Shown one piece after another: positions 1 to 45,183 of a stretch of DNA of 64,000 bases. This stretch comes from Apostichopus japonicus (Eukaryota; Echinodermata; Holothuroidea; Aspidochirotida; Stichopodidae), in the NCBI RefSeq assembly GCF_037975245.1, contig NC_092569.1, positions 29,782,168 to 29,846,167 on the forward strand. The letters run 5' to 3'. A model generated the notes under the pieces. That model worked only from the letters and a program-made list of their open reading frames with translations, was not told the DNA's origin and did no database searches. Every line of letters begins with the position of its first letter. The first letter of the stretch is position 1. The position numbers and the translations under genes are program-made.

Positions 1-671
1 TCAGTGGAGTTGTCTCCAAATAATATTTAGAAAGTGAATCGTCTAGTCAGTTCGGTATCACATACGGACTTGGGAAATCAAATGTATGCCTACTGGACAG
101 AGCTTGCATTGGGCAGGATAAAGTTAAGGGTAGACCTGTATTCTAAGAAGCAAATTAAAACTTATGAGTGATGTCAAATTAGTCAGTCATATTTGGAGAA
201 AGAATAAAATTCTGTGATATGCAGATGAAATAGAAGAAAATATCACATTTTTGAGTGAACAATTGTTAGCATCTAACATCTATAAAAGGCCACCTGATTC
301 TATATATTCACTCTGATATTGAAGGTCACATCCTGTCTAACACGGTAAAACAAATTTGCAAAACAAATTATAACTAATTTTAATGTTACAATTTTTCCCC
401 AGACATTGAAGAATGTTATTAAATTGGACATTAAAATATAATGATATAATAGTAGGACATTAAATGTCTCAGTGAGGAAAAGCATATTATTGATAAAATT
501 TTTAATCAAAGAGAAAATAAAAGCTGTTAGCAAAATGCTGATCTACTGGTCCTGCTCTGTTTTGAAACATCAGGCCCTCAAAAGTTTAAGAAAGTTTTTT
601 AAAAGTGGTTAGTTTATTTATTATGGGGTCAAAACTATAACTTCTTTAAAGTTGTGTTTAAAAGTAAGTTG

Positions 672-7655: not shown

Positions 7656-10600
7656 CTGAAGAAGAAAGAGAGAGTGTTGGTGAAAACTCTCCTTACTCAT
7701 TAAGGCATTATTACTGTATATCTAGTTGGGTGTGGGAGCCATCTTGAATAAAATCAAATATTGGTCACTTCTGATTCCAAATATAAATTTATGAATAGAA
7801 ACTTGACTCAAGACATGTTAAACAAATTAGAAAAGAGCAAAGAAAATGTTTGGCTACACATCTGTGTGTCCCCTCGGACAAGTTACAAGTTACCTTGCAG
7901 ATCCCCATTTATACATATACATACATATAAGAGGGCAAGGCATTATGTGCGAAGTTTAGTAATTTTATCTTTTCTTTATTATATCCATACTAGATTTGCA
8001 AAATGTCTTAAGTACCAAACGAGTAAATTCTTGAAGGTACAAGCACAATGCTATCAAGTAACTTCCAAACTTGTAGAAAGAGCTAGACAAAGGTGTGAGA
8101 AGAGGTAGAAATTGCCATGGTATATGTATAAGTTATAAGTATAAGTTGTAAGTATAAGTTATACGTATAAGTATAAGTAAGAGGGCAAGGCATTAAGTGT
8201 GAGGTTCAGTATTTTGATCTTTCTGTAATAGTACCCATACTAGATTTGAAAATGCTTTAAGTACCAGAACGAGTACAAATCCATTGAAGGTAAGTACCAG
8301 TACAGGTTATAACGCTGGAATACGAATAATAATAATAATTAAATTTGTATAGCACAAATATCCAGAAAAACTGTTCCATGTGTTTCACAAACAAAGTATG
8401 TATGCAAAAGATGAGATTTTAGAGTACACATTTACCAAAAATCTGAATTGCTATAGTTACTAGTGTTATCAAGAGATGACAATAAAACTTTTGAGGAGAA
8501 AGGGTTTGACGCCGATTATGTTCTGCCTTAGAGGTGTGACCTAAAGGATGGAATTGGTTAGTCCTGGACTTTATGTTCTAATAAAAGATAAACTAAAATA
8601 ACAATACAACAAACAATACTGTGTGCAAAATGTATCGTTATGTAAGTTTACCTTGTGTTAGAAAATTCAAATAATATGCAAAATATTCTAACGACAAAGC
8701 AGCTGTAAGCATGTTATAAATACAGCTGGCTACTCACCGACAAAGAAACCACCAAAGACTATCGTGAAGCCAATCTCGGTGTAGATGCCCTTTCGAACAG
8801 CAGAAAAGTTCCAGAGGATCAAACAGAAAACATTCTCCACGAAGATGACGGAATAAAAGATGAAGACACGGTACCTTGAAGTGCCTTCCTTCAGATTAAA
8901 GAAGCAGAAAATGTAAACCACAGCGATGACTGCGTTAAAGAGACGCTCCTCGAACCAACTGCTGCAAAAGTCAGTGTTTTGAAGGAAAACCCAAACGGCC
9001 ATCACGAACCAATGAATGGCTAAATATGGGAGAATATGAGAAAGAATTAGAAGACTTAGTTAGAAACGAATCATTTACAATTTAATGAGTTACCACTGTA
9101 TATCGGTATCAAAGACAAATCTTGAAATTTGAAATAACATACCACCATGCTGTCTAAAGGAGGGAATGACATATCTAAGCAGGTATCTCTTTTTGAGGGT
9201 CAGATTGACAGATGTTTAAGACTGCATTGCTATGAAAGATTGTATCAATTTGGTGATATCTGCAAACATGTCAACTATTTTTGGAAGGAGTTAAGATAAT
9301 AAATGACAGAACAACACATCAATCTATTCAAATAATCTTTCATTCTCTATGAACATTAAGTATTTGTTGTGGAACTGGAACAACAGACTGTACCCAAGTC
9401 AATGCACAACAGGAAAAGGTTACACTGCAAACTAACAGTGAGTTTCTAAGTAACATAATCAAATATCTTACTGATGACTCTAGAGCAGGGGTGGGCAACC
9501 GTTTTGAATGAATGGGCCAGATATAAGGAGTGAGAAATTGACTGGGCCGCACCTAATCAACGACCTGCTGTTGATTTCAAATATTTGATTCCGAGGACTT
9601 TCAAGCAATAGGTGTGTGTACTTAATCTGTATTCACAAAAACATAATGTCAATACAGTACAGTTGATAATTATCGGGGATAATAGGCCTACCTGACATAG
9701 TGCTGATGAATTCTAAGCAGCTAGCTCGTTTTTTGTGATGATGTAAATTAGATTTTTTTAAACTTTTTCATGAGACATCTCACAGGCTGCACAAAAATCA
9801 CTGGCACGCCGCATGTGGCCCACAGGCCGTAGGTTGCCCACCCCTGCTCTAGAGGAATATATGTAATAAATATCTTACTGATGACTAGGAATACATAAGC
9901 TTTGAAGACGGTGGCAAAGAGGACGAGAGCAACGACCCTGGATGATATCATGCCGATCCGCCAAACCGCTTGCAATAACACTCCAGGCCAAGAGACAACT
10001 TTCTTATCCTCTCGGACTCTACGATGTATTCTGCTATAGACAGCAATGGCCCAGCACAGGGAGACCAAAGACACGGTGGCTGAAATGCCTGGAATGAACA
10101 AACACCAAAATTTAACATAGCAAAAGTTAGATAAAGAAATCCTTAAAAAATTAATGAAAAGAGTTAACGTTTAGGATGATGATATTGAGCACCATGTCAG
10201 TGTACTGTCACTTCAAACAAGAACTAATATTGTAACTTTGTGTATAAACAAATTACCGTACGAAAAGCTACAAAACAGTTTCTTGGAGTATGGAGATGGT
10301 TTGTCGATCAGGAGAACTAAAACAGGATATCTAAGAGGGTACAAGAAATACTGATTATAGTCAAGAAGATCAGTTCTTCAGAAAAATATTCATACAGTCA
10401 GGGGACTGTCAGGCTAGCAAAGACCATATCCAATAAATTAATATAAGGATTACAAACAAAAACAAAAAATGGCACAAAATAGAAAAAAAAAATACATATG
10501 AAATTCTGAAATAAGGATTTTGATTGCACATGATCCCTGAGCCTATATTGTTAATGAAATGTTCTGCACTTGTAAAGAGACCACACACTGTGATGAAGTA

Positions 10601-21764: not shown

Positions 21765-23771
21765 TTACCTAATCAAACATGAAACACACAAATTGGATGA
21801 ATTGATACAGTCATGGTGGCAGAATGCACCACATCCTTTGCAGGACACTAGGCCCTTTAGTTTACAACTGCTGCAATCTACGGACGGTCCATTCTTGGTA
21901 TCCGTCGGGTCTTTGGAGGAGGTCACATTGGCAGCCACTATTTGATTCGCACTCGTACTCTTTATACTCTTGACCGGCGAGGGCGACGCGGAACTTAAAA
22001 ACAGATTGGCTTGAGCACCCTGGCCGCCCGCAGTGCTAAATAAGGGCTTGCTGGAAGAGACGATGGTGGGAGGGGGGTGGGATGATAGTGACGAGGAGTT
22101 TGACGAGGAGTGTTTTAATTGGTTGCTTGTGACAGTTGGCAGAAGCTGAACCATGGTAGTTTTGGCAGATAGTCCAGGTGCCGTAGCAAAAGTCGTCTTA
22201 CTCATGAGCGAGTTAGCTGGATGTTCCTTGGACGATAACGAATGCATTGTGACCTGGGCCTGCCCTAGACCAGTCTGTTCCGTTATACGGACAAAGTTGG
22301 GTTTGCTAGGGTCCACGGCATAGACCTTAACGACTTGGGTGCTCTCCACTTGAGAGGGCCGGATCGTCTTCCGTTCGCTATTTACGGATGGTCTCATGCT
22401 AGATATCGAGGGTGTGGCCGCCAATCCTATAGAGGCCGCTCGGTTTGCAGCTACCAAGGAATTAACTTGGGTGGTGCTGATACAGTTTAAAGCACTACTT
22501 GAAACAACATTTGGGAGGTGACTCCTCGACTTAGCGACGTTTGCACTCGTCGAACTAATGAGTTCAACCTTTGACGTTGTGACTGTTCTAGATTGGCTAT
22601 TTACATTTGGTTGACTAACAATTACCAGCGACATCCCCGGCTGAGCTTTGATGATGATTGGCTTCACCGTCTGGTGAGGTGGCTTCTCTGAGGACACTGC
22701 CACTGCCACAACTTGATTTGTCCTCCCAGATATTTCTCCAGATTGATTCGTTACTAACGCTGTCACGCTGGAGAGGTCACCGAGTTGATTATTGAGCAAA
22801 GCAGACACAGCGGTAGCGTTAGTGGGAACTATTGATTTCAGTTGTGTGAGATTGTGAGGTCGCCCCCTACCTAAGATAGTTGGGACATGGCCATAGGGCC
22901 GAGCAGTCCTCTCGGGTGGCGACCTCTGTTGAAGCTTGGCACTAGTTTGTGCTTTTATCTGAGCTAATGTCTTAGTCTGCCCGTGAGCAGCCTGCACTTT
23001 GGCTAACATTTGAGTTTTGATCTGCGCTAGCGTCCTTGTTTGCCCCTGTTTCATACCAGTTCCCTTGACCTGAGCCACTGTCCTTGCTGAAACAATACTA
23101 CTCTGTGGACTACCGAGAGGCCTCTGTAGACCTCGACCGAGGCTAGTGGGAGGTTCCTCACTCTCCTGCTTGATGCGTTTCTCCAAAGGAACATCCCCCC
23201 TTCCCCTTGGCAAGAGCGCCTCACCTGGACGTTTCAAATTCAGCGAAGGCAATATCCGGCCCGTGTTTAAAATGCCAGTTATTGCACCCGATCTCTGCTT
23301 TTCTACAAATCCTTTCTCCTTCTGAGTTGCGTTAGCTATGTCCGTCAAGAGTTTACTACAGACGTAATCGTTCCTCTGTTTGGATTTCTTGGGAGAAGTC
23401 ATTTTGAGGTGTTTGGCATTCTGCGCAGCGGCTGCTGCTGCCTTCACCTCCTTCAAATTCAGTTTCAGGATGATCTTGCCGTGCCTTTCTGGTTTGACCT
23501 CCATCTGACCTGGAGGTGTTGGTGGTGGTAGGGGAGGAATACCAGGAGATCGTGGACCCTTCTCCTTCTTGACCGACTCCTGTCTGGCAGCGACCGCCTG
23601 CTTTGGAGGTTGTTCGCTCACAGAATGCTTTGTGCTGGTTCTCGATTCGCAGTGCACCACGGGAGCACTACGCCTGGTGGATTTCTTTGGAGGTGAGCTT
23701 AAGAGCGTAGCGTGGAGATTTGCTAATGGGTTCACGTACGACTGTCCCCAGAAAGGCTCAAAGTTTGCCCT
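21765..23771 (-). CDS. ASXL: ASXL exon 10, disordered region and C-terminal PHD
   Basis: Acceptor ATCTACAG before 23771, TAA stop at 21765-21767. Starts [13 protein letters not shown], which continues WK from exon 9. A Ser/Thr/Gln-rich middle follows, with poly-Ala ([11 protein letters not shown]), a proline tract, and two related segments [18 protein letters not shown] and [18 protein letters not shown]. The last 38 residues are the ASXL-type atypical PHD, with paired cysteines in CSSC, CKGC and CVSC and the CHHDC core. Confidence 0.95.
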
Positions 23772-26700
23772 CTGTAGATAGAGAGGAAAAAGTATTTTAT
23801 GAACACTGTTCGTATCCTCTACTACTAGTACAGGCCAAGATCTGACAGTGTCAATAAACAAGCAAAGTGATCGGAACAAATGGGTGACTTAATCAATTAA
23901 ATCTTGTAGAAATCTGGTATCTGAAGTTTCCCATCTTAAGATACTGTGTTTACACTGTTTCAAGAAGTCAACAACTGAAAACAATTCAATGTAACAAAGA
24001 TATTCAATTGTTTAGACTAATACAATAACAAACCAAGCTTGTCAGTGTTCAATCCAATGCAGAGAAGTTTGTGTCACAAAATGTTACGACAGTTTCAGCC
24101 CAAAACCCAAGGCAGAAAGAAGTGTCATTCAGTCACTTGTTTTAATTCCACAACTGCAACACAAAATCTAAAAGAGTATATTTTCAATTACTGCTAGGAT
24201 GAAATCTGCTATAACCCTCCCTAGTAGTGATCGACACCAAAATCTCCCTCCTGTAGAGACGCAAGTGACAAAAACCTGAGTGTCGAAAGAAGGATTGGAA
24301 AATTCAACAGCAGCTCACTACTCCCTAGCTCGCAACCTCATTACTCCAACCCCCCCCCCCCAACGGGGTAAATGCTGCATATGACATTTCAATGCAAGGA
24401 AGGTTTCCTCCTACTGTCTTTCATGAGAGGATTAAGTAGCAAATGATCCAAATGGATCAAAATATTCTACTAGTTTGTAATCAACTGCAGCTTTAGCTCA
24501 TGATTTTCATGCCCCCCCCCCCAAAAAAAACACTTATGTACAGCTGAGCCTCCCCACCCTGCCTCCACAGTCATCATACCTTCCATGGGTCTACTTTGGA
24601 CCTCTCTTTCATCAACTCCTGCTGAAGCCTAGCCTGCATCTCTGGGGTGAATTCTCCATTTTTCAAACGGGTCCTCCACTGACTGCATGCCTTAGCAAAG
24701 AACTCATTGTCTAGAGCTGCTGCTCTCAGCCTGAGGGAGAGAGAGGGTGGAGCGCAAAAAAAGATAATAAGAAAATAAATAGCATCTATGATTAGGGCTT
24801 TCTCAATAGACACCATGACTTGGGAATAAGTGTCCCACATTTCATTCTCCTTTCGTATCCAAAACTTGAACTAAGCCGATCCAACTCTAAAACATAATTT
24901 CAAGTGGATGTGAGTTATGAGCACTTACACTTGAGTCTAGCAACATTTGTTGTTTTTCGATGAATTGCTATCAATTTAGTCGCAGGCAATGACGGTCATG
25001 TGGCCAGTGAAGGGACGTAAGTTTTTATAACAGCATGCAATCTGATGACAAGTAGAGCTCATTCCATATTGTAGAGAAGCCTTCAAAGTCACAAGCATAA
25101 CTTTTTTATGAAGATGCAGGATATAAAGTACTCATATCACATTGACATTAGATGGTACAAGATACTCATTCCAAATTGTAACAAATGTCCTCACAATAAC
25201 CAATATAACGTTGTGATGAAGATACAGGATATGGAGCACTCATATCACGTTGACATTTGAAAGCAAAGGGTACTCATTCCAAATTGTAACAAATGTCCTC
25301 ACAATAACCAATATAACTTTTTTATGAAGAAACAGGATATGGAGTACTCATATCACATTGACATTAGATGGCACAGGATACTCATTCCAAATTGTAACAA
25401 ATGTCCTCACAATAACCAAAATAACTTTTTTATGAAGAAACAGGATATGGAGTACTCATATCACATTGACATTAGATGACACAGGGTACTCATTCCAAAT
25501 TGTAACAAATGTCTTCACATATAACTGTTTTATGAAGAAACAGGATATGGAGTACTCAAATCACATTGGCTTAAGATGACTAAGGGTAGTCATTCCAAAT
25601 TGTAACAAATGTCCTCACAATAACCAATTTACTTTTTATGAAGATACAGGATATGGAGTACTCATATTTGAGTACTCTCAGATGCACTAACCTATGCACT
25701 TCAACATTTACGTAAGTAGCTCATGATTACCGAGGTGACATTAACTGAGAACTCACCTCAGATTGCTATCAGGTGTCTTAACGGTGTCTACTTCTGGTAG
25801 TAGCCTCAGAAGTTTGTACTGGTGTTGAAGTGGTAGACTGTTGAAAGTGTGCTTGTTGATAAGATTCTGTCAACATAATTAAAACTCTAAAATAATCACC
25901 TAAGAAAAATGACAAAGTTTTGTGAATTAACCAAGGCATCTGGAATATCTACAAACTCGGGAAATAAAGTATAATTAATATGGAGAACTTGCAAACTTTA
26001 CTTCAACAAAACAGGGAAGTTGGTTGGAAACAAGGCTGATCGGACTCAAATTTCTGATCGCATTTTCAATTTGTGTGTCATTGAACCAGAGATTGCTGTA
26101 ACTGGGATGACACTTACCTTGGGGTTAACATGAACCAGTTTGGAGTCAGGGGTCTCCAAGTCCACAGACAGACTTCTCCTCTCTAACCCTTTCAGGCTCA
26201 GCTTTCTGTTCCTCTTGGGGAGTCTTCTCCGTGGTTGCTGGGTTGCAAGAACAATTATTTATACATATGTTAATTGCTTTTTAATTTAGGCCACTTTTTT
26301 CTAGTTGCAACAGGTGGAAAATAAAGATGGAAAGAAAATGTAAAAAGAAAGCATCATAAATAGTAACTACATTTTTGTGCAGGGCTAGTGTCATTGAGGC
26401 ATCACACATTAGACAGAACGGCGGCCATCTTAGCTCTGGTCAAATTTAATAGTTCTGATTTCTCTCAATCGACATACGATTTTGGAAGAGTGAAATTGAG
26501 ACTCTTTGTGTCTTTGACCAAATTGAACCAGTGACCTAAGGGTTCCAAGCCCCTGCACTCTACCAACTGTGCTATCCAACCTTTAGTTGGCACCGATCCC
26601 TGTATGTGTTATATATGTGTTCCGACCATTGAACCAAGGGTTACAAGTCCTGAGTTCTACCAACTGTGCTATCTAGCCGTTAGTTGGCACCAATCCCTAT

Positions 26701-29700: not shown

Positions 29701-32700
29701 ATTATGTAAATCCTGGGCATCAACTTAAAGCTTTCAACTTACGACGTTTCTTCATGGGGATGTATTTTTCATCATGGATTGGTCCCTCTGTGTCCAGGGA
29801 AGCATCTAAGGGTTCATCACTCTTAATTTCCAGGAGATCTCTAGCTTCTTGGGGTAAGTCTCTCTAAAAGGAGGAGATGTGAAAAATAATTACCAAAAGG
29901 TTCTATCCTCTCCATCTATCTATATAGATAAAACTTTGGGATAAATTGCTATCTACAAAACTTAGTAGTTCCAGGAGAAAGTAGCAGACATCTTCACTTT
30001 GGCAACTTTCTGCCCAGGGCTACTTTCCCTACAAATTGGTCATTTTATAATACGATTTCTGCAATTGGATGAGTCTATACCGATCCGACTGAGGATTAAG
30101 TCACAGTGTGATTCTGCACTCAATGTCCAAAACCTGACAGAATTGAAATGGTAACGGTACAGTGCAAACTGCTATGGCGTGTAAGCGACCAAAGGCTACG
30201 TAGTGTGTGAGGATTCATGCATGGCGATACTTCAATTTATCTGGCATTTACTTACCATCTGCACTTTAATATCCATAATATGATAACCCTAAATACATTA
30301 TGAGGCCCATGCTTGTGTCTGGGCAAATCCATTTTCATATTGTAAATGTCATCATTTTTATCTAATATCCGTCTTGAGATAAACATTTGCAGTATCCACT
30401 TTCTGAAAATTCTGCTCTTTTAACAGGCGGATAGAGCATCGATGATGTTTGAAACATCTTTTTCACTGTAAATAGAATTCATACAAACTAAAGCAAACTC
30501 TAGCATCATCACTGGATGGTACCGAAGACGGTTATTCCAAAATGATACAGAAAATGTTGCAGCACTATGGGTTTTCTCTTTTCCCATGTTGGTCACATTT
30601 TAGCAGTTGTGCCACTTGATCTATACAGTGACCATTTTAAATTTGACTCAACATCTTTAGATCTTACCCAGTGGCGGAGCGTCCATACAGTCAGAGGGGC
30701 GGATGCCCCCCCTGACAGACTCAAATGGACTGCTGGCGCCCTTTTCAGCTTTTTACCACTTTTTACTTATTTGCGACTATTGACTTTTTTATTGCGCTCT
30801 CAAATACCTATTGACATTTGTCACATTTCGTTGGTGTAATTTTCTGACAAAATGGCAATGACACCTACTTATTCTTCGTTTCTCTGCAAATTAGCAAGGC
30901 CCAGAAAAGGGTAATTTCCGGTGATCTAGGGAGTATCTTTACTCAAAAAATTTCTGTACGCTCCACGCCAACCTGTGGTGGTGCTTTGCTTAGATACTGT
31001 AGTGTCGAAAGCGACCCTACAGATCATTCTCACCCCCCCCCCCGACCAATAAACCTAGCTCCGCCACTGATCTTACCCTTAGTCCATAGACACCATTCAA
31101 ACCGACCACTTTGTAGAATAGACTCTGAGGCCCTCTACTTCCAATGTGAAGCATCGCATTGAGACACGCTTCAGATCCATTTCCACTGTAAAGAAAAAAA
31201 GATGATTGGGAATTATAAACTACTGTGTTGTTTGGAGCCACAGAAAATACCTGCAAATAAAAAAAAAAACAACAACAAACAAACAAAAGACAAAAGCACG
31301 CCAAGAACTGTGGTTTCAACAAGGGACTTACTGATTTGCATGTGAGTTAATACTATTGAATATGCATAATATGTTAAAATAGTAAATACACAGAGTTAGT
31401 GTTTAACAGCAAAGATTCAGATCTGTAATTTGTTTCTCCCTTCTTTTGGTATCCTAAAGCAACTTTTCCAATTGATACATATTTATATATTACAGTATAT
31501 CGGCTGATAAATTTCCCATAAACAATGCTGTTATCTTGATGAGGCCTTGTCAAATGATTATTTTTTATCAATACACAATATTTACAGTGTTTGGGTGATG
31601 AAAACATTGACAATCTATTAATAGAATCATTCAGATATTACTTGATCTGTCACATTTGTTTTAGTGAAAGTCTGTGTCTAAGTTTGATCGACTGACTTCT
31701 TGTTTTGAGTGATATATACTCCGTAGATCGGGTCAAATTGCTCACCAAAAATAAGTAACGTCACTCGTTGATACCCAATCTACTCTACAGTGGTAAGTTT
31801 TGGTGTTTTTACACTATTTGTAGCTTTAGAAACCATTTTGCACTTTTACATTTCGCAAAGGCAAACGTGTGAGTACATCTAGATACTTAGTACGCAGGCG
31901 ATTAAAGTACTACCACCACAGCAGCATGAGTACAAGTAGAATTCCCAAGTTTGATATGAGCGGTTAAAGAGTACTGTACAAGAAGACTATAAGGCTCTAA
32001 GCAAGAGTATGAAGTTAGCACAAAGTCCTATGTACTGTATGCAGTACATCAGATAAGTTTTCAAACATCCCACTAGCATGAGTAACACCAATTACAAATC
32101 CATGAGTGCAGGTGAGAACAGGTTAGTATGGGAGAGTACGGGTAAAGTCAACTACTGTATGCTAGAGAACAAGTACAGGTACATACAGACTCACTACAAA
32201 TCTACACAGTGAATACAGTCACATACTGTTCCTTTCTTTACATACATGAAGGATATTATATATGACCTTGAGATACATCCGCTCGATGGTGACTTTCTAG
32301 ATCGACTCATTTGCATGTCTGTGAATGAGTCTGACTGGACAAGGAAACACCAAACACTTTCAAGTAGTTTATTTAAATACCAATTTGAAGACAATATACC
32401 ATCTTGTCTACAACATACAGTATATGTGCACTGCTATCCACCTACAGTAGCTTACAACAATTAGTAACACTTTAACACAGAGTCTGACAGAACATGAGGA
32501 ACATAACAGTAGAGTATGGTTGTGAATAAGTCTGTAAGCAGTTTTATTGTACTGAATGCATACTGCTTGATACTGTACTGCACCTATATTTTTCTTATCG
32601 GCAAAAAAAAAAGGTGCAGAAACTGAACATAGGTTTAGAATATAAGTCACACAGGATGAAATCAGGTGAACATTGTTCGATTGTACATTAATCAGATTAT

Positions 32701-41700: not shown

Positions 41701-44700
41701 AAAAATAACGGTCACTTGTCACGACCTGTGTGCAAATTAAAACCTGTAACTATTTTTAGAGCCTCTTTCAAAGAAATCTTTCTCGCTGAGACATATTGTC
41801 TTGCTAAATTGAACACTCGTCAATGTCTGGAAAAAACAAAATGATATGCAGCACCTCCAGAAAATTTATCTTGAAAAATTTTAAATAAATTTTGACCATG
41901 TTAAAAAAAAGTGGATGTGATACAGATGAGCTTTACGTACAGTACAGTGCGACTCAAAAACAATAGCCTCACCTCACATCCTTCAGTTTCAGTGCCTGAA
42001 TATCCCTTAATATCTCACGGAAGCTCAGAGGTCTGTTGGGGTATTTCTTTAAAACCTGAAATCAAATTAAATTTTAGGAAAAGAAAAGAGAAAAAACGTT
42101 AAGCACATTATGAATTATACATGTATATAAATATGATTTTAAGTGTTAAAGGTATTACAATGTATACAGTGCAGTATGATGTAAGAACTGCATAACAATT
42201 TAACCATTTAACTGAATATAACATGATACCGTATGCTGTTCAAACGGACCTATGAGAAGAGGGCAAATTCAAGGACAAAACAGGGACACTGCTGTGCGGG
42301 TGCAAAATTTACCAGAAAGTGTTCACTGTACACTATGTGCATGAACAGTACAGTACGCTTACTGTAAGTCACATGTATATGAACAGTAAAAAAGAATAGT
42401 CTGGGGTGATAATTTATTTGTAACAATTTGTGTCATTCTGCGATAATTTGTTAATGATGATTGAAAATCAGTCCGATATTATAAGCATGCCCCCACCGCC
42501 CCCCCCCCCCCCCACCAACCTCCCTTTGTAAATGCCACTGATTTAATTTCCCCAAAAGGTAAAGTCAATGGAATCCTACCCAACCTAAGCTAAAAATAAA
42601 GAAAATGAAATGAAAACAAAAGACACAAAGGTTGTTGTCAATCTGCAACAATGACATACCCAAGTCATCAACTAACTGTATGCTACAAACTGTGTCAACT
42701 TTAGATCCTCACAAACATTAGGTTAGGAATCAAATGTAACATTTCACCATACGATATATAGTAAACATGTTCCTCTACAGTGAAATTTATACACATGTAG
42801 CCTATCCTTGCAAATTGCCTCTAAGTGCACATAGCTCCTTTCTCTATCCCACCCCCCTCCCCCCCAAAAAAAACAACAACCATCCTCCTCCTCATCCAAA
42901 CAACTCAGACGACTGTCAGACAACAGTAGCACTTGGCATCAATACGACTTTATCAGACATAGATGCATCTACAGTACTTAGGAAGCCCAGAGTTCATACT
43001 CTACTGGCTGGCTATAGGATGGCAGTTTGTTTCTCTTTTGTGTATTAACAAGGAAATTTCCATCATTCTTCCATTCCAAATTCTACTGTATTCCACGCCA
43101 AATTGCTACTGAATATGTCAACCATCATCCAAAATGAGCCCAAACTGCTCCTTGGACGTGCCGGCTGTTACTCAACCTTATAATACTGTGCTGTACAGTA
43201 AGCCATTCAGCTTTCAACACAAATGTGTTCAATCTTACATGACTGTCTTCTATGCAGAATGAGGTAAGATGTGGGAGGGGATGGGAGGTGGAGTGGGAGG
43301 AGAAAAAGGGATAAAAGATACCTTATCAAATGTTATAACTTGATTGTGGGCAAATTATCACACTTTGTGAATGAGATGAAGTCCTTGTATAGTCATGATT
43401 GGCAGCTGTTCCTGCATGTTTATACAGTATGTGAATGGATACCATAAATAACCAGACGTGCACAGGCTTTCTGAAAGCAAAATTATTCGTCAAATAAGAG
43501 TGGCTGTGAAAGGCTTGCTGCTGTTTGAACAGGAGTGGCTGTGACTTGACCTTCATAATACTGGGGACTGATGTGCCAAAAAAAACACCATTTAAATTGC
43601 TTCTAGTCCCAATCTTAAATTTACTGTACAGTAGTGAAGCTACTATGACTTATTATCAAGCTACATTTAAGCTGGGCTCTGTATAATTATCAGAATCCCA
43701 AAATTCTGTATTCAAACAGCTACGTACATCAGCAGGCCCACTATATTGCACAATGAACACAAAAGTTAAAAACTTAAAGAGCATACATGTATAAAGGCTT
43801 ACATAAAAGATAGGTCAAAGTAGTCTACTTTAACATATTGGTATTCACTACAACTACAATTATAAATAAAATCAAAAGGATCAGAATAAAGGGGCTCACT
43901 TTCCAAACTTTCGCTATGTCTACAGTTAGCTGTTCAAACAGGTTAAACTTAATCAATTTGATCAAAATTCGGTGAAGGAAAACAAACACAGAGGTAGATT
44001 AAAGTTAACTAATTTAAGGAGGCAAGTACTTATGGATGCCAGCACAGAGGAGTGTTATTTTCTCCATTATGCCAATTAGAGATATTTCTGCTCATGATTG
44101 GCAGATTTTGCCAAATAGACTAGATGTATGTATTGCAAAATCCAGAGAACTTCAATTCTTGCTCACGTCCTTGTCATAAGTTACAGTACTGCTCCGAAGA
44201 AACCTAACATTTGCGCTGCATGGAATGCAATAATCAGTTATCATGCTCATGTCCTCTTGTATAGGAATGCAATTATCGTGGTCATTGCGATAAACTGTCT
44301 ATCTGAGAGTGAATTCCGCGCAATGAACAAAGTTAACTTTATTCATCTCTGCAGAGGTGAGAAGTCCAATGTTTGGTCCGTGCAAGCAATAGTTGTAATC
44401 CTAGTTAATGCTATTCATGCAAGTCACAAAGCAATTAGATCAGAGTGATGTGACAAAATCAGACTTAACCCACTTAAAAAGGCGTTGATTGAGTTCCACA
44501 CACTAAGGCTACTTCGAAACAGAACTGTTTGGTTAAAACCGGCAGTCAGGGTAATGAAATAATCTTGTGGCAAAGCATGAAATGAATTCAGGAGCATTTA
44601 TATTTCAAATCGTTACCTGCCATGTGCTGATTTATCTATGCATATATAAATATGCATTTATATTTATTTCCTTTACAACAATTTTTTTGTTTTACTGAAT

Positions 44701-45183
44701 CAACCCAGCCACTGTAGGGCCTCTACAACCGTACTCAATCTAAATTAACGTTCCCTATGCCAAGTCTGTATCTTACTAGTGTATGGATATTGGTGAAAAA
44801 GTTTATTGTAATTAAGTTTAATTTTAATGGGCACGAATTATTTAAAATAAATATATGAACGATCATCAAACTAACGTGTCTTTTTTGTTGCTAATGTAGA
44901 ACAGCAACAAGATCAAAGAGAGGGCTAAGAGTAGTCTAGGCCTAGTATAACAAGTAATTGTTTTCCGTGTTGGCATAGGCCTAGGCTAGCTTGTACTGAC
45001 AGATAGTGCAATGTACAGTACATTCGTTAGTCTGACTACACAGTACACATATCTGTACGTAATACCACCATATAAAGTGACTCGGGCCAAAGATGGGAGT
45101 GGAATGAAGCTCCGATTTCTTCTTACCAGTTCGGAGGCCTCGATCCAAGTTCTTCCTTTTTGGCGCCTCTTTCTATCCTCCAT
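21765..45183 (-). CDS. ASXL: ASXL (Additional sex combs-like) chromatin regulator, ten exons
   Basis: ASXL proteins bind and activate the BAP1 deubiquitinase, which removes ubiquitin from histone H2A, in the nucleus. Exons (minus strand): 45127-45183, 41973-42055, 31077-31185, 29743-29863, 28236-28565, 27463-27539, 26118-26237, 25757-25866, 24580-24730, 21765-23771. All junctions keep frame; the CDS is 3165 nt (1054 aa). Domains: HARE-HTH, about residues 11-83 ([30 protein letters not shown]); DEUBAD, about 288-386, with the NEFF motif and [13 protein letters not shown]; an internal repeat of TLAQIKA-type segments near the start of exon 10, resembling a motif in vertebrate ASXL proteins; and an atypical PHD at 1017-1054 with Cys/His ligands. 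It is shorter than vertebrate ASXL1-3, mostly in the disordered middle. A possible AATAAA signal lies about 0.8 kb past the stop (20974 to 20969). Confidence 0.95.
24580..24730 (-). CDS. ASXL: ASXL exon 9, DEUBAD second half
   Basis: Encodes [20 protein letters not shown], then [20 protein letters not shown] and KVDPWK. The NEF motif, which contacts BAP1 in this family, is intact. Acceptor CCCTCAG, donor GTATGA. Confidence 0.95.
25040..25675. repeat. About 110-bp tandem array in ASXL intron 8, roughly six copies
   Basis: Units share CATTCCAAATTGTAACAAATG, CTCACAATAACCA, ATGAAGAAACAGGATATGG and AGTACTCATATCACATTG. It lies between the two DEUBAD exons. Confidence 0.88.
25757..25866 (-). CDS. 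ASXL: ASXL exon 8, DEUBAD first half
   Basis: Encodes [20 protein letters not shown] followed by RLLPEVD and SNLR, the first DEUBAD helices. Acceptor TTGACAG, donor GTGAGT. Phase 2 out. Confidence 0.93.
26118..26237 (-). CDS. ASXL: ASXL exon 7
   Basis: 40 codons, from [19 protein letters not shown] to [15 protein letters not shown]. The ETPDSxLVxxN segment matches the start of the ASXL DEUBAD region. Acceptor AACCCAG, donor GTAAGTG. Confidence 0.88.
26519..27125 (-). repeat. Tandem array of tRNA-Thr-like 5' halves, about six units of 100-110 bp
   Basis: On the minus strand each unit holds GATAGCACAGTTGGTAGAG (D-arm and A-box), then AGGGG-CTTGTAA-CCCTT (a 5-bp stem and 7-base loop with UGU in the anticodon position in several units; UGG in the rightmost), then AGGTCAC and an (A/T/G)-rich spacer with TATATGTGTTATATATG. 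Only the unit at the right end carries the GGTTCAATT B-box-like part, so the array looks like an amplified piece of a tRNA-derived SINE. Confidence 0.75.
27463..27539 (-). CDS. ASXL: ASXL exon 6 (77 nt, 26 residues)
   Basis: A short exon found by phase: exon 5 ends in phase 1 and exon 7 needs phase 0, and this segment starts in phase 1 and ends in phase 0. Acceptor ATGACAG, donor GTAATA. Encodes [20 protein letters not shown] and then SLHGK. Support is the frame, splice sites and absence of stops; homology is not certain. Confidence 0.7.
28236..28565 (-). CDS. ASXL: ASXL exon 5, basic linker
   Basis: Acceptor GTCTTCCAG before 28565, donor GTAACC after 28236. Encodes a His/Lys/Arg-rich linker ([20 protein letters not shown]) ending PPEGETNG. 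The RIILKPLK segment resembles the VVLTPLK segment of vertebrate ASXL linkers. The reading frame stays open past the donor, but phase agreement with the next exon supports this end. Confidence 0.82.
29743..29863 (-). CDS. ASXL: ASXL exon 4
   Basis: Acceptor CCTTTTAG before 29863, donor GTAAGT after 29743. Encodes [18 protein letters not shown] and onward to YIPMKKR, an acidic linker after the HARE domain. Phase 0 in, phase 1 out. Confidence 0.85.
30669..31069. mobile_element. 401-bp hAT-like element inserted on the ASXL exon 3 splice donor
   Basis: Terminal inverted repeats CAGTGGCGGAGC and GCTCCGCCACTG. The 8-bp target duplication ATCTTACC (30661-30668 and 31070-31077) is the donor itself: on the minus strand it reads GGTAAGAT, whose first G is the last base of exon 3. 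The intact copy next to the exon keeps splicing possible. No transposase. Confidence 0.92.
31077..31185 (-). CDS. ASXL: ASXL exon 3, HARE-HTH second half
   Basis: Acceptor TTCTTTACAG before 31185. Encodes [20 protein letters not shown] and onward to YGLR. The last base and the donor GTAAGAT coincide with the target-site duplication of a hAT element. Confidence 0.93.
33850..33997 (+). mobile_element. Short tRNA-derived SINE
   Basis: A-box-like GTGATAAAGGCGGTGAC, B-box GGTTCGATCCC, short body and an (ATT)n tail. In ASXL intron 2. Confidence 0.6.
34345..34529. repeat. 185-bp fold-back with perfect 14-bp inverted ends
   Basis: TCAGATACGGTACT (34345-34358) and AGTACCGTATCTGA (34516-34529). No clear target duplication; may be a small MITE. 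Confidence 0.55.
39544..41611. mobile_element. 2.07-kb inverted-repeat element with ten GTCACGCGAGTCAC motifs
   Basis: ATATGGTCAATTCCA (39540-39554) and TGGAATTGACCATAT (41601-41615) are a perfect 15-bp inverted pair; ATAT on both sides may be a target duplication. Inside, a 344-bp unit is tandemly doubled (39795 and 40139). The 14-mer GTCACGCGAGTCAC occurs eight times exactly and twice with one or two changes, the last 2 bp from the right terminal repeat. No transposase frame is seen. A non-autonomous DNA transposon of unknown family is the best reading. Confidence 0.65.
41973..42055 (-). CDS. ASXL: ASXL exon 2, HARE-HTH first half
   Basis: Acceptor GATTTCAG before 42055, donor GTGAGG after 41973. 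Encodes [20 protein letters not shown] and onward to LKDV; the split codon joins exon 3 as Ser, giving [17 protein letters not shown], close to the vertebrate sequence. Confidence 0.92.
45127..45183 (-). CDS. ASXL: ASXL exon 1 (start codon)
   Basis: 19 codons, [19 protein letters not shown], then donor GTAAGA. The basic start followed by TWxEA is typical of ASXL N-termini. Phase 0. Confidence 0.9.

Follow-up and report, generated by a model that had tools for sequence, protein, structure and literature searches.

The locus considered here raises the question of how a transposon came to lie exactly on the splice donor of a host gene, and why it might be tolerated there. The window, meaning the whole stretch of 64,000 nt that was analysed, is from Apostichopus japonicus (GCF_037975245.1, NC_092569.1, positions 29,782,168-29,846,167). 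It includes an element with perfect 12 bp inverted ends (CAGTGGCGGAGC and GCTCCGCCACTG), in which no coding capacity was found over its 401 bp, and the sequence ATCTTACC is present in identical form on either side of it (Table 1). On the minus strand ATCTTACC reads G/GTAAGAT, where the slash marks the exon/intron border, and its content is the final base of exon 3 followed by intron positions +1 to +7. The exon end reads GGA CTA AGG/GTAAGAT with the element next, so that exon 3 terminates in AGG inside the duplication. An earlier note had described the insertion as a hAT element whose 8 bp duplication comprises the last exon base plus the donor, and both parts of that description are borne out by the ends, the exon border and the family data below.

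Table 1. Features of the window (positions counted from its first base) and related loci.
Feature	Position	Strand	Length	Content or basis
Non-autonomous hAT-type element (MITE)	30669..31069	.	401 bp	Inverted ends, 8 bp duplication
Terminal inverted repeat	30669..30680	+	12 bp	CAGTGGCGGAGC
Terminal inverted repeat, opposite end	31058..31069	-	12 bp	GCTCCGCCACTG
Exon-side duplication copy	31070..31077	-	8 bp	Last exon 3 base + donor, AGG/GTAAGAT; first GT base 31076
Distal duplication copy	30661..30668	-	8 bp	Donor-like, TGG/GTAAGAT; first GT base 30667, +409 from exon end
In-element donor-like site	31025..31036	-		GGG/GTGAGAAT; first GT base 31033, +43
ASXL exon 1, coding part	45127..45183	-	57 nt	Start of HARE-HTH; Pfam over joined exons
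ASXL exon 2	41973..42055	-	83 nt	HARE-HTH; Pfam over joined exons
ASXL exon 3	31077..31185	-	109 nt	End of HARE-HTH; phase 0 end
Probable ASXL exon 4	29743..29863	-	121 nt	Phase 0 start; inferred solely from splice signals and an unbroken frame
Exon with DEUBAD (ASXH)-like ASXL peptide	25757..25865	-		Approximate borders
Open frame with ASXL PHD_3	21768..23888	-	707 codons	Pfam PF13922, E 4.1e-13
hAT transposase loci sharing stretches of consensus positions 218-333				L052, L053, L059, L065, L066

The host gene, on the minus strand, is Additional sex combs-like (ASXL). Exons 1-3 joined in frame gave a Pfam match to HARE-HTH (E 1.3e-13), exon 3 with part of the probable exon 4 matched ASXL1 in the PDB (E 5.7e-7), and 27 residues of the DEUBAD-like peptide matched Asx in the PDB (E 0.001). 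HARE-HTH, the DEUBAD-like peptide and PHD_3 thus lie in that order on one strand, as expected of ASXL, and the three parts would belong to one transcript. The probable exon 4 has a weak donor at its own end. A HARE-HTH profile search of the whole genome had no match at E 0.001, for which the spread of the domain across three exons is the probable reason. Nothing usable on the exon borders of human ASXL1 was found as outside support in the available portions of the literature.

Elements of the hAT superfamily are marked by CAG...CTG ends and by a duplication length of 8 bp. The genome (671,581,487 bases in 35 contigs) was searched with this stretch, and 40 of 4,040 first-look candidates were scored, all 40 being matches. 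These are the best matches to the present copy, which is itself included, and not a random sample, and many of them lie in one amplified flank (GCACCTA) and therefore do not represent 40 independent insertions. Perfect 8 bp duplications were found in 24 of the 40 copies, 21 at unshifted ends (19 distinct sequences) and 3 once one or both ends had been moved by 1 base; the imperfect ones had one mismatch (12 copies), two (3) or four (1). Since perfect duplications are this frequent in the family, the duplication at the ASXL locus is not a chance match, and its presence around the element is confirmed. The left 22 bases of the family, with up to 2 mismatches, had 1845 + 1768 = 3,613 genome matches against 0 for a backwards control, and no second copy of the family was found within the 64 kb window.

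Three features expected of a non-autonomous hAT element, namely an 8 bp duplication, short terminal inverted repeats and sequence in common with transposase-bearing hATs, were found. With respect to the third, 5 of the 16 loci fetched for their hAT transposase matches contained stretches of consensus positions 218-333, a part distinct from the terminal repeat, at 77-92% identity. In two of these (L053 and L059) the shared stretch is found ~0.9 kb past the Dimer_Tnp_hAT domain, no more than ~50 bases from the point where the likeness of the two loci stops; the L053 protein includes DUF4371 (E 5.1e-19) and Dimer_Tnp_hAT (E 4e-8). Two further loci (L051 and L062) have only the first 10 bases of the element in common with it, at one end. 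No autonomous parent with both ends of the element was found among the 16 loci, which were taken from the matches listed; these loci are relatives of the element rather than its proven parent. The element resembles hAT MITEs in its shortness, in inverted ends beginning with CAG, in 8 bp duplications, in a family of thousands of copies, and in subterminal stretches common to hAT transposase loci of the same genome, and it differs from them in nothing of kind. Separately, two of the loci fetched include apparently complete hAT elements (L063, 1455-5939; L064, 145-4662) that are 99% identical, with ends CAAGGGCGGCGG, differing exact 8 bp duplications (GGTGTGTG and GATGGACC) and long open transposase frames (866 aa). 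This pair is a sign of recent hAT activity.

Compared with the consensus of the other 39 copies, to which it has a full-length match (93%), the present copy differs at 20 of 394 sites (5.1%), 8 of them in CpG positions and 12 outside, the family medians being 2 and 7, respectively. It is thus among the more diverged of the copies sampled, which would suit an old insertion. Elsewhere in the genome the element is carried in a ~1 kb composite repeat with the flank GAGTGTAGTAAGGG, present in hundreds of copies (L041-L044, L047-L050, L067-L075), and GCACCTA is another amplified flank of the family. Many copies therefore did not arise by transposition of their own.

Given these data, it is very probable that a member of this hAT family inserted at the border of ASXL exon 3 and intron 3, and that the exon-side copy of the duplication still serves as the donor. 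The ends, the duplication, the identity of the exon and its frame are established from the sequence, while the cut, the repair and their effect are deduced. A transposase would have made an 8 bp staggered cut that by chance ran from the final base of the exon to intron position +7, and through repair those 8 bases would have come to lie on both sides of the element. The exon-side copy would continue as donor, with the exon before it unchanged and the intron unchanged to +8, and the element and the second copy of the donor would be excised together with the rest of intron 3, now ~1.2 kb. Tolerance would then come from the register of the duplication and not from any seeking of donors by the element, and the likeliest account is that the insertion was tolerated because of its own duplication.

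The earlier note had further proposed that the insertion created a second donor about 400 bp into the intron and left the original donor intact. The former agrees with the distal copy, found 409 nt on from the exon end. The latter stands as regards sequence: the exon-side donor is kept from the exon through to intron position +8, because the first base of the element is C, the base that also stood at +8 of the intron before insertion. It does not stand as regards identity. On hAT insertion each flank retains one strand of the old site and the other strand is made by repair, and hence neither copy is "the original".

The earlier note mentioned neither a further donor-like site within the element, at +43, nor the frame shift that both extra donors would cause. 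The +43 site reads GGG/GTGAGA, where the family consensus has GCGAG and a CpG change in this copy has given GTGAG. In the 40 copies the bases after CATTCT were CG in 15, CT in 13, CA (the state of this copy) in 3 and CC in 2, and were not found in 7. A C-run (G on the gene strand) immediately before this site, at 31033-31043, varies among copies, and its length would fix the frame of any transcript using the site. The extensions from the +43 and +409 sites (43 nt and 409 nt) each exceed a multiple of 3 by 1 and run into stops at codons 105 and 103, respectively, and retention of the intron gives 102 codons before a stop, so that all three products end at codon 103-105, just past HARE-HTH. The probable exon 4 stays in frame only with splicing at the exon side, and since either extra donor would shift the frame and truncate the protein, exon-side splicing is likely the working route.

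The relative strength of the three sites bears on an alternative in which the exon-side, +43 and +409 donors compete and the sites brought by the element are used in an appreciable fraction of transcripts, giving a frame-shifted mRNA that is degraded or encodes a HARE-HTH-only protein. Scored with a donor matrix, the exon-side site reached 8.82, the +43 site 8.86 and the distal site 7.32, the remaining ASXL donors scoring 9.23, 11.34, 5.02 and 12.00 on the same matrix. Energies of pairing with U1 (-8.9, -9.3 and -9.2, in the same order) do not separate the sites and are slightly better at both extra ones. Modelled folding of the naked RNA paired the inverted ends with each other (0.94-1.00 over the 12 pairs) and gave a local openness of 0.077 at the exon-side donor, 0.060 at +43 and 0.020 at the distal site, the donor of the empty site, where there is only one, having 0.089. 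The mean unpaired fraction in the global fold of the same model (0.48, 0.43 and 0.51, respectively, and 0.30 for the empty-site donor) gives the exon-side donor no edge over the distal one. The matrix score and local openness relative to the distal site thus favour the exon-side route, and the score of the +43 site, the U1 energies and the global fold count against it. Competition among the donors accords with these last points and with the fact that both extra frames end, at the codons given above. However, losing full-length ASXL is expected to carry a considerable cost, local openness and matrix score are both lowest of the three at the distal site, and there is no sign of upkeep, the 20 differences from the family being those of any ageing copy. 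Such competition is therefore considered improbable. Still less probable is an elaboration of it, in which the exon-side donor, the CpG-born donor within the element and the duplication-born donor form a switch that sets how much full-length ASXL is made relative to a product that is degraded or comprises HARE-HTH alone.

Very little credence is given to the proposal that the insertion is harmful to ASXL and exists as a rare allele, present by chance in the animal sequenced. The assembly represents one haplotype, and an empty allele could exist unseen; a 241-base query of the joined flanks matched this locus alone in that assembly, in two halves, and thus met no empty allele there. However, the 5.1% divergence, with more non-CpG differences than the family median, fits an insertion of some age, and the donor remains undamaged.

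The element is almost certainly not an intron of its own, whether introner-like, recursively spliced or a twin intron, with the duplicated signals as both splice sites: the geometry of a duplicated signal with inverted ends is that of some introners, at least as these are presented in the accessible part of one report (PMC9860276), but the element ends on the gene strand in CACTG directly before the distal donor (CACTG/GGTAAGAT), so that the acceptor AG needed for a recursive splice site or twin intron is missing, and although an introner-like splice site does lie in the duplication, coding is not resumed after the element, the next probable exon being ~0.8 kb beyond.

The preferred reading, with insertion on the ASXL donor and continued use of its exon-side copy, has the donor hit by chance, and targeting of donors by the family was looked for in the flanks of other copies. 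The pattern GTAAG at 0-3 bases from the element end had 692 matches (reversed-pattern control, 1), and the longer GTAAGGG was present in 89 of 100 of the GTAAG matches listed. Among 10 loci fetched from that list, partly picked for variant spacers, 8 belonged to one ~1 kb composite repeat and 2 did not. Likewise, GGTAAGNN plus the element end had 10 matches (control, 0), namely this locus and 9 others, all 9 in the composite repeat; the scrambled control word GGATAGNN had 2.

With words that include the last exon base, GGTAAGN{0,1} at the element end gave 4 matches (reversed control, 1) and GGTGAGN{0,2} gave 5 (reversed control, 2). Nine such loci were fetched, and in seven the right end and the duplication were found, with 8 of 8 bases matching in five and 7 of 8 in two; two of the seven (L076 and L077) have one flank in common. 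Of the remaining two, one was without the element, and in the other (L084) the right end was not found. In none of the seven was a frame open across the 240 bases before the site, a test that short exons could escape, while at L084 one frame was open through them. An evident exon at a donor-word site was seen at the present locus only, though short exons elsewhere could be missed. In terms of independent contexts, GGTAAG had 4 (this locus included) against 4.5 expected and GGTGAG 4 (L084 included) against 2.8 expected, and the scrambled GGATAG in one register had 2 matches against 1.5 expected; the context counts are low-end, as the words and 10 bases of the element end had to match exactly. 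Donor words are not clearly enriched in the duplications, and targeting of donors by the family is not supported. The number of introns, computed from a total of 19,828 genes and the mean lengths of transcripts, exons and introns as published, is ~101,000, and on this basis 3,613 insertions at random would give ~1.6 duplications over donor positions -1 to +5, or 2.2 over +1 to +5, both figures being high-end because some copies spread inside larger repeats. One insertion on a donor is therefore about the chance expectation.

Huff et al. in 2016 reportedly described introner elements with splice sites derived from target-site duplications, and Giroux et al. in 1994 are said to have described maize Ds as a transposon insertion with a splice-like target. 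As far as the accessible part of the source goes, introners copy a splice site via the target duplication and some take their donor from it (PMC9860276). The present element is similarly a DNA transposon with a target duplication that copies a splice signal, whereas introners split an exon with an intron that was not there before; at ASXL the insertion lengthened an intron already in place, and each copy is a donor. Insertion of a transposon into AGGT has been set out as a model of intron gain, in the part of that source available (PMC3443670). The model shares with this locus a splice-like target and a signal duplicated on each side, but at ASXL the element entered a functional donor, and the distal copy is a surplus donor instead of an acceptor. 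The available portions of a study of mulberry, with MITEs at alternative splice sites (PMC6593561), and of three further papers (PMC7789003, PMC12403724, PMC10901741) do not describe the present situation. A literature search for exactly this situation found no description, which does not prove its absence in print. The locus is thus a new instance of a known phenomenon, in which prior cases concern the birth of introns and here an existing intron grew.

Eight duplicated bases suffice, with none to spare, to reproduce a complete donor (-1 to +7). Even where a gene is among the most vulnerable to insertion, a transposon can therefore be close to neutral, with an extra donor as its trace. Taken alone, the case leaves current views of splicing and of transposition as they were.

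A second, different hAT-like element lies at 9486-9846 of the window (within 9440-9900). It is 361 bp long, with ends CAGGGGTGGGC and the duplication CTCTAGAG, and 40 of 887 candidates were scored, all 40 being matches. It lies ~31 bases after a donor-like site of an XK-related exon, and the 17-mer TCATCAGTAAGATATTT, which includes that donor, is repeated just past the far side of the element. As TCATCAGTAAGATATTT is too long for the target duplication, the repeat probably stems from an earlier tandem duplication of the region around the donor.
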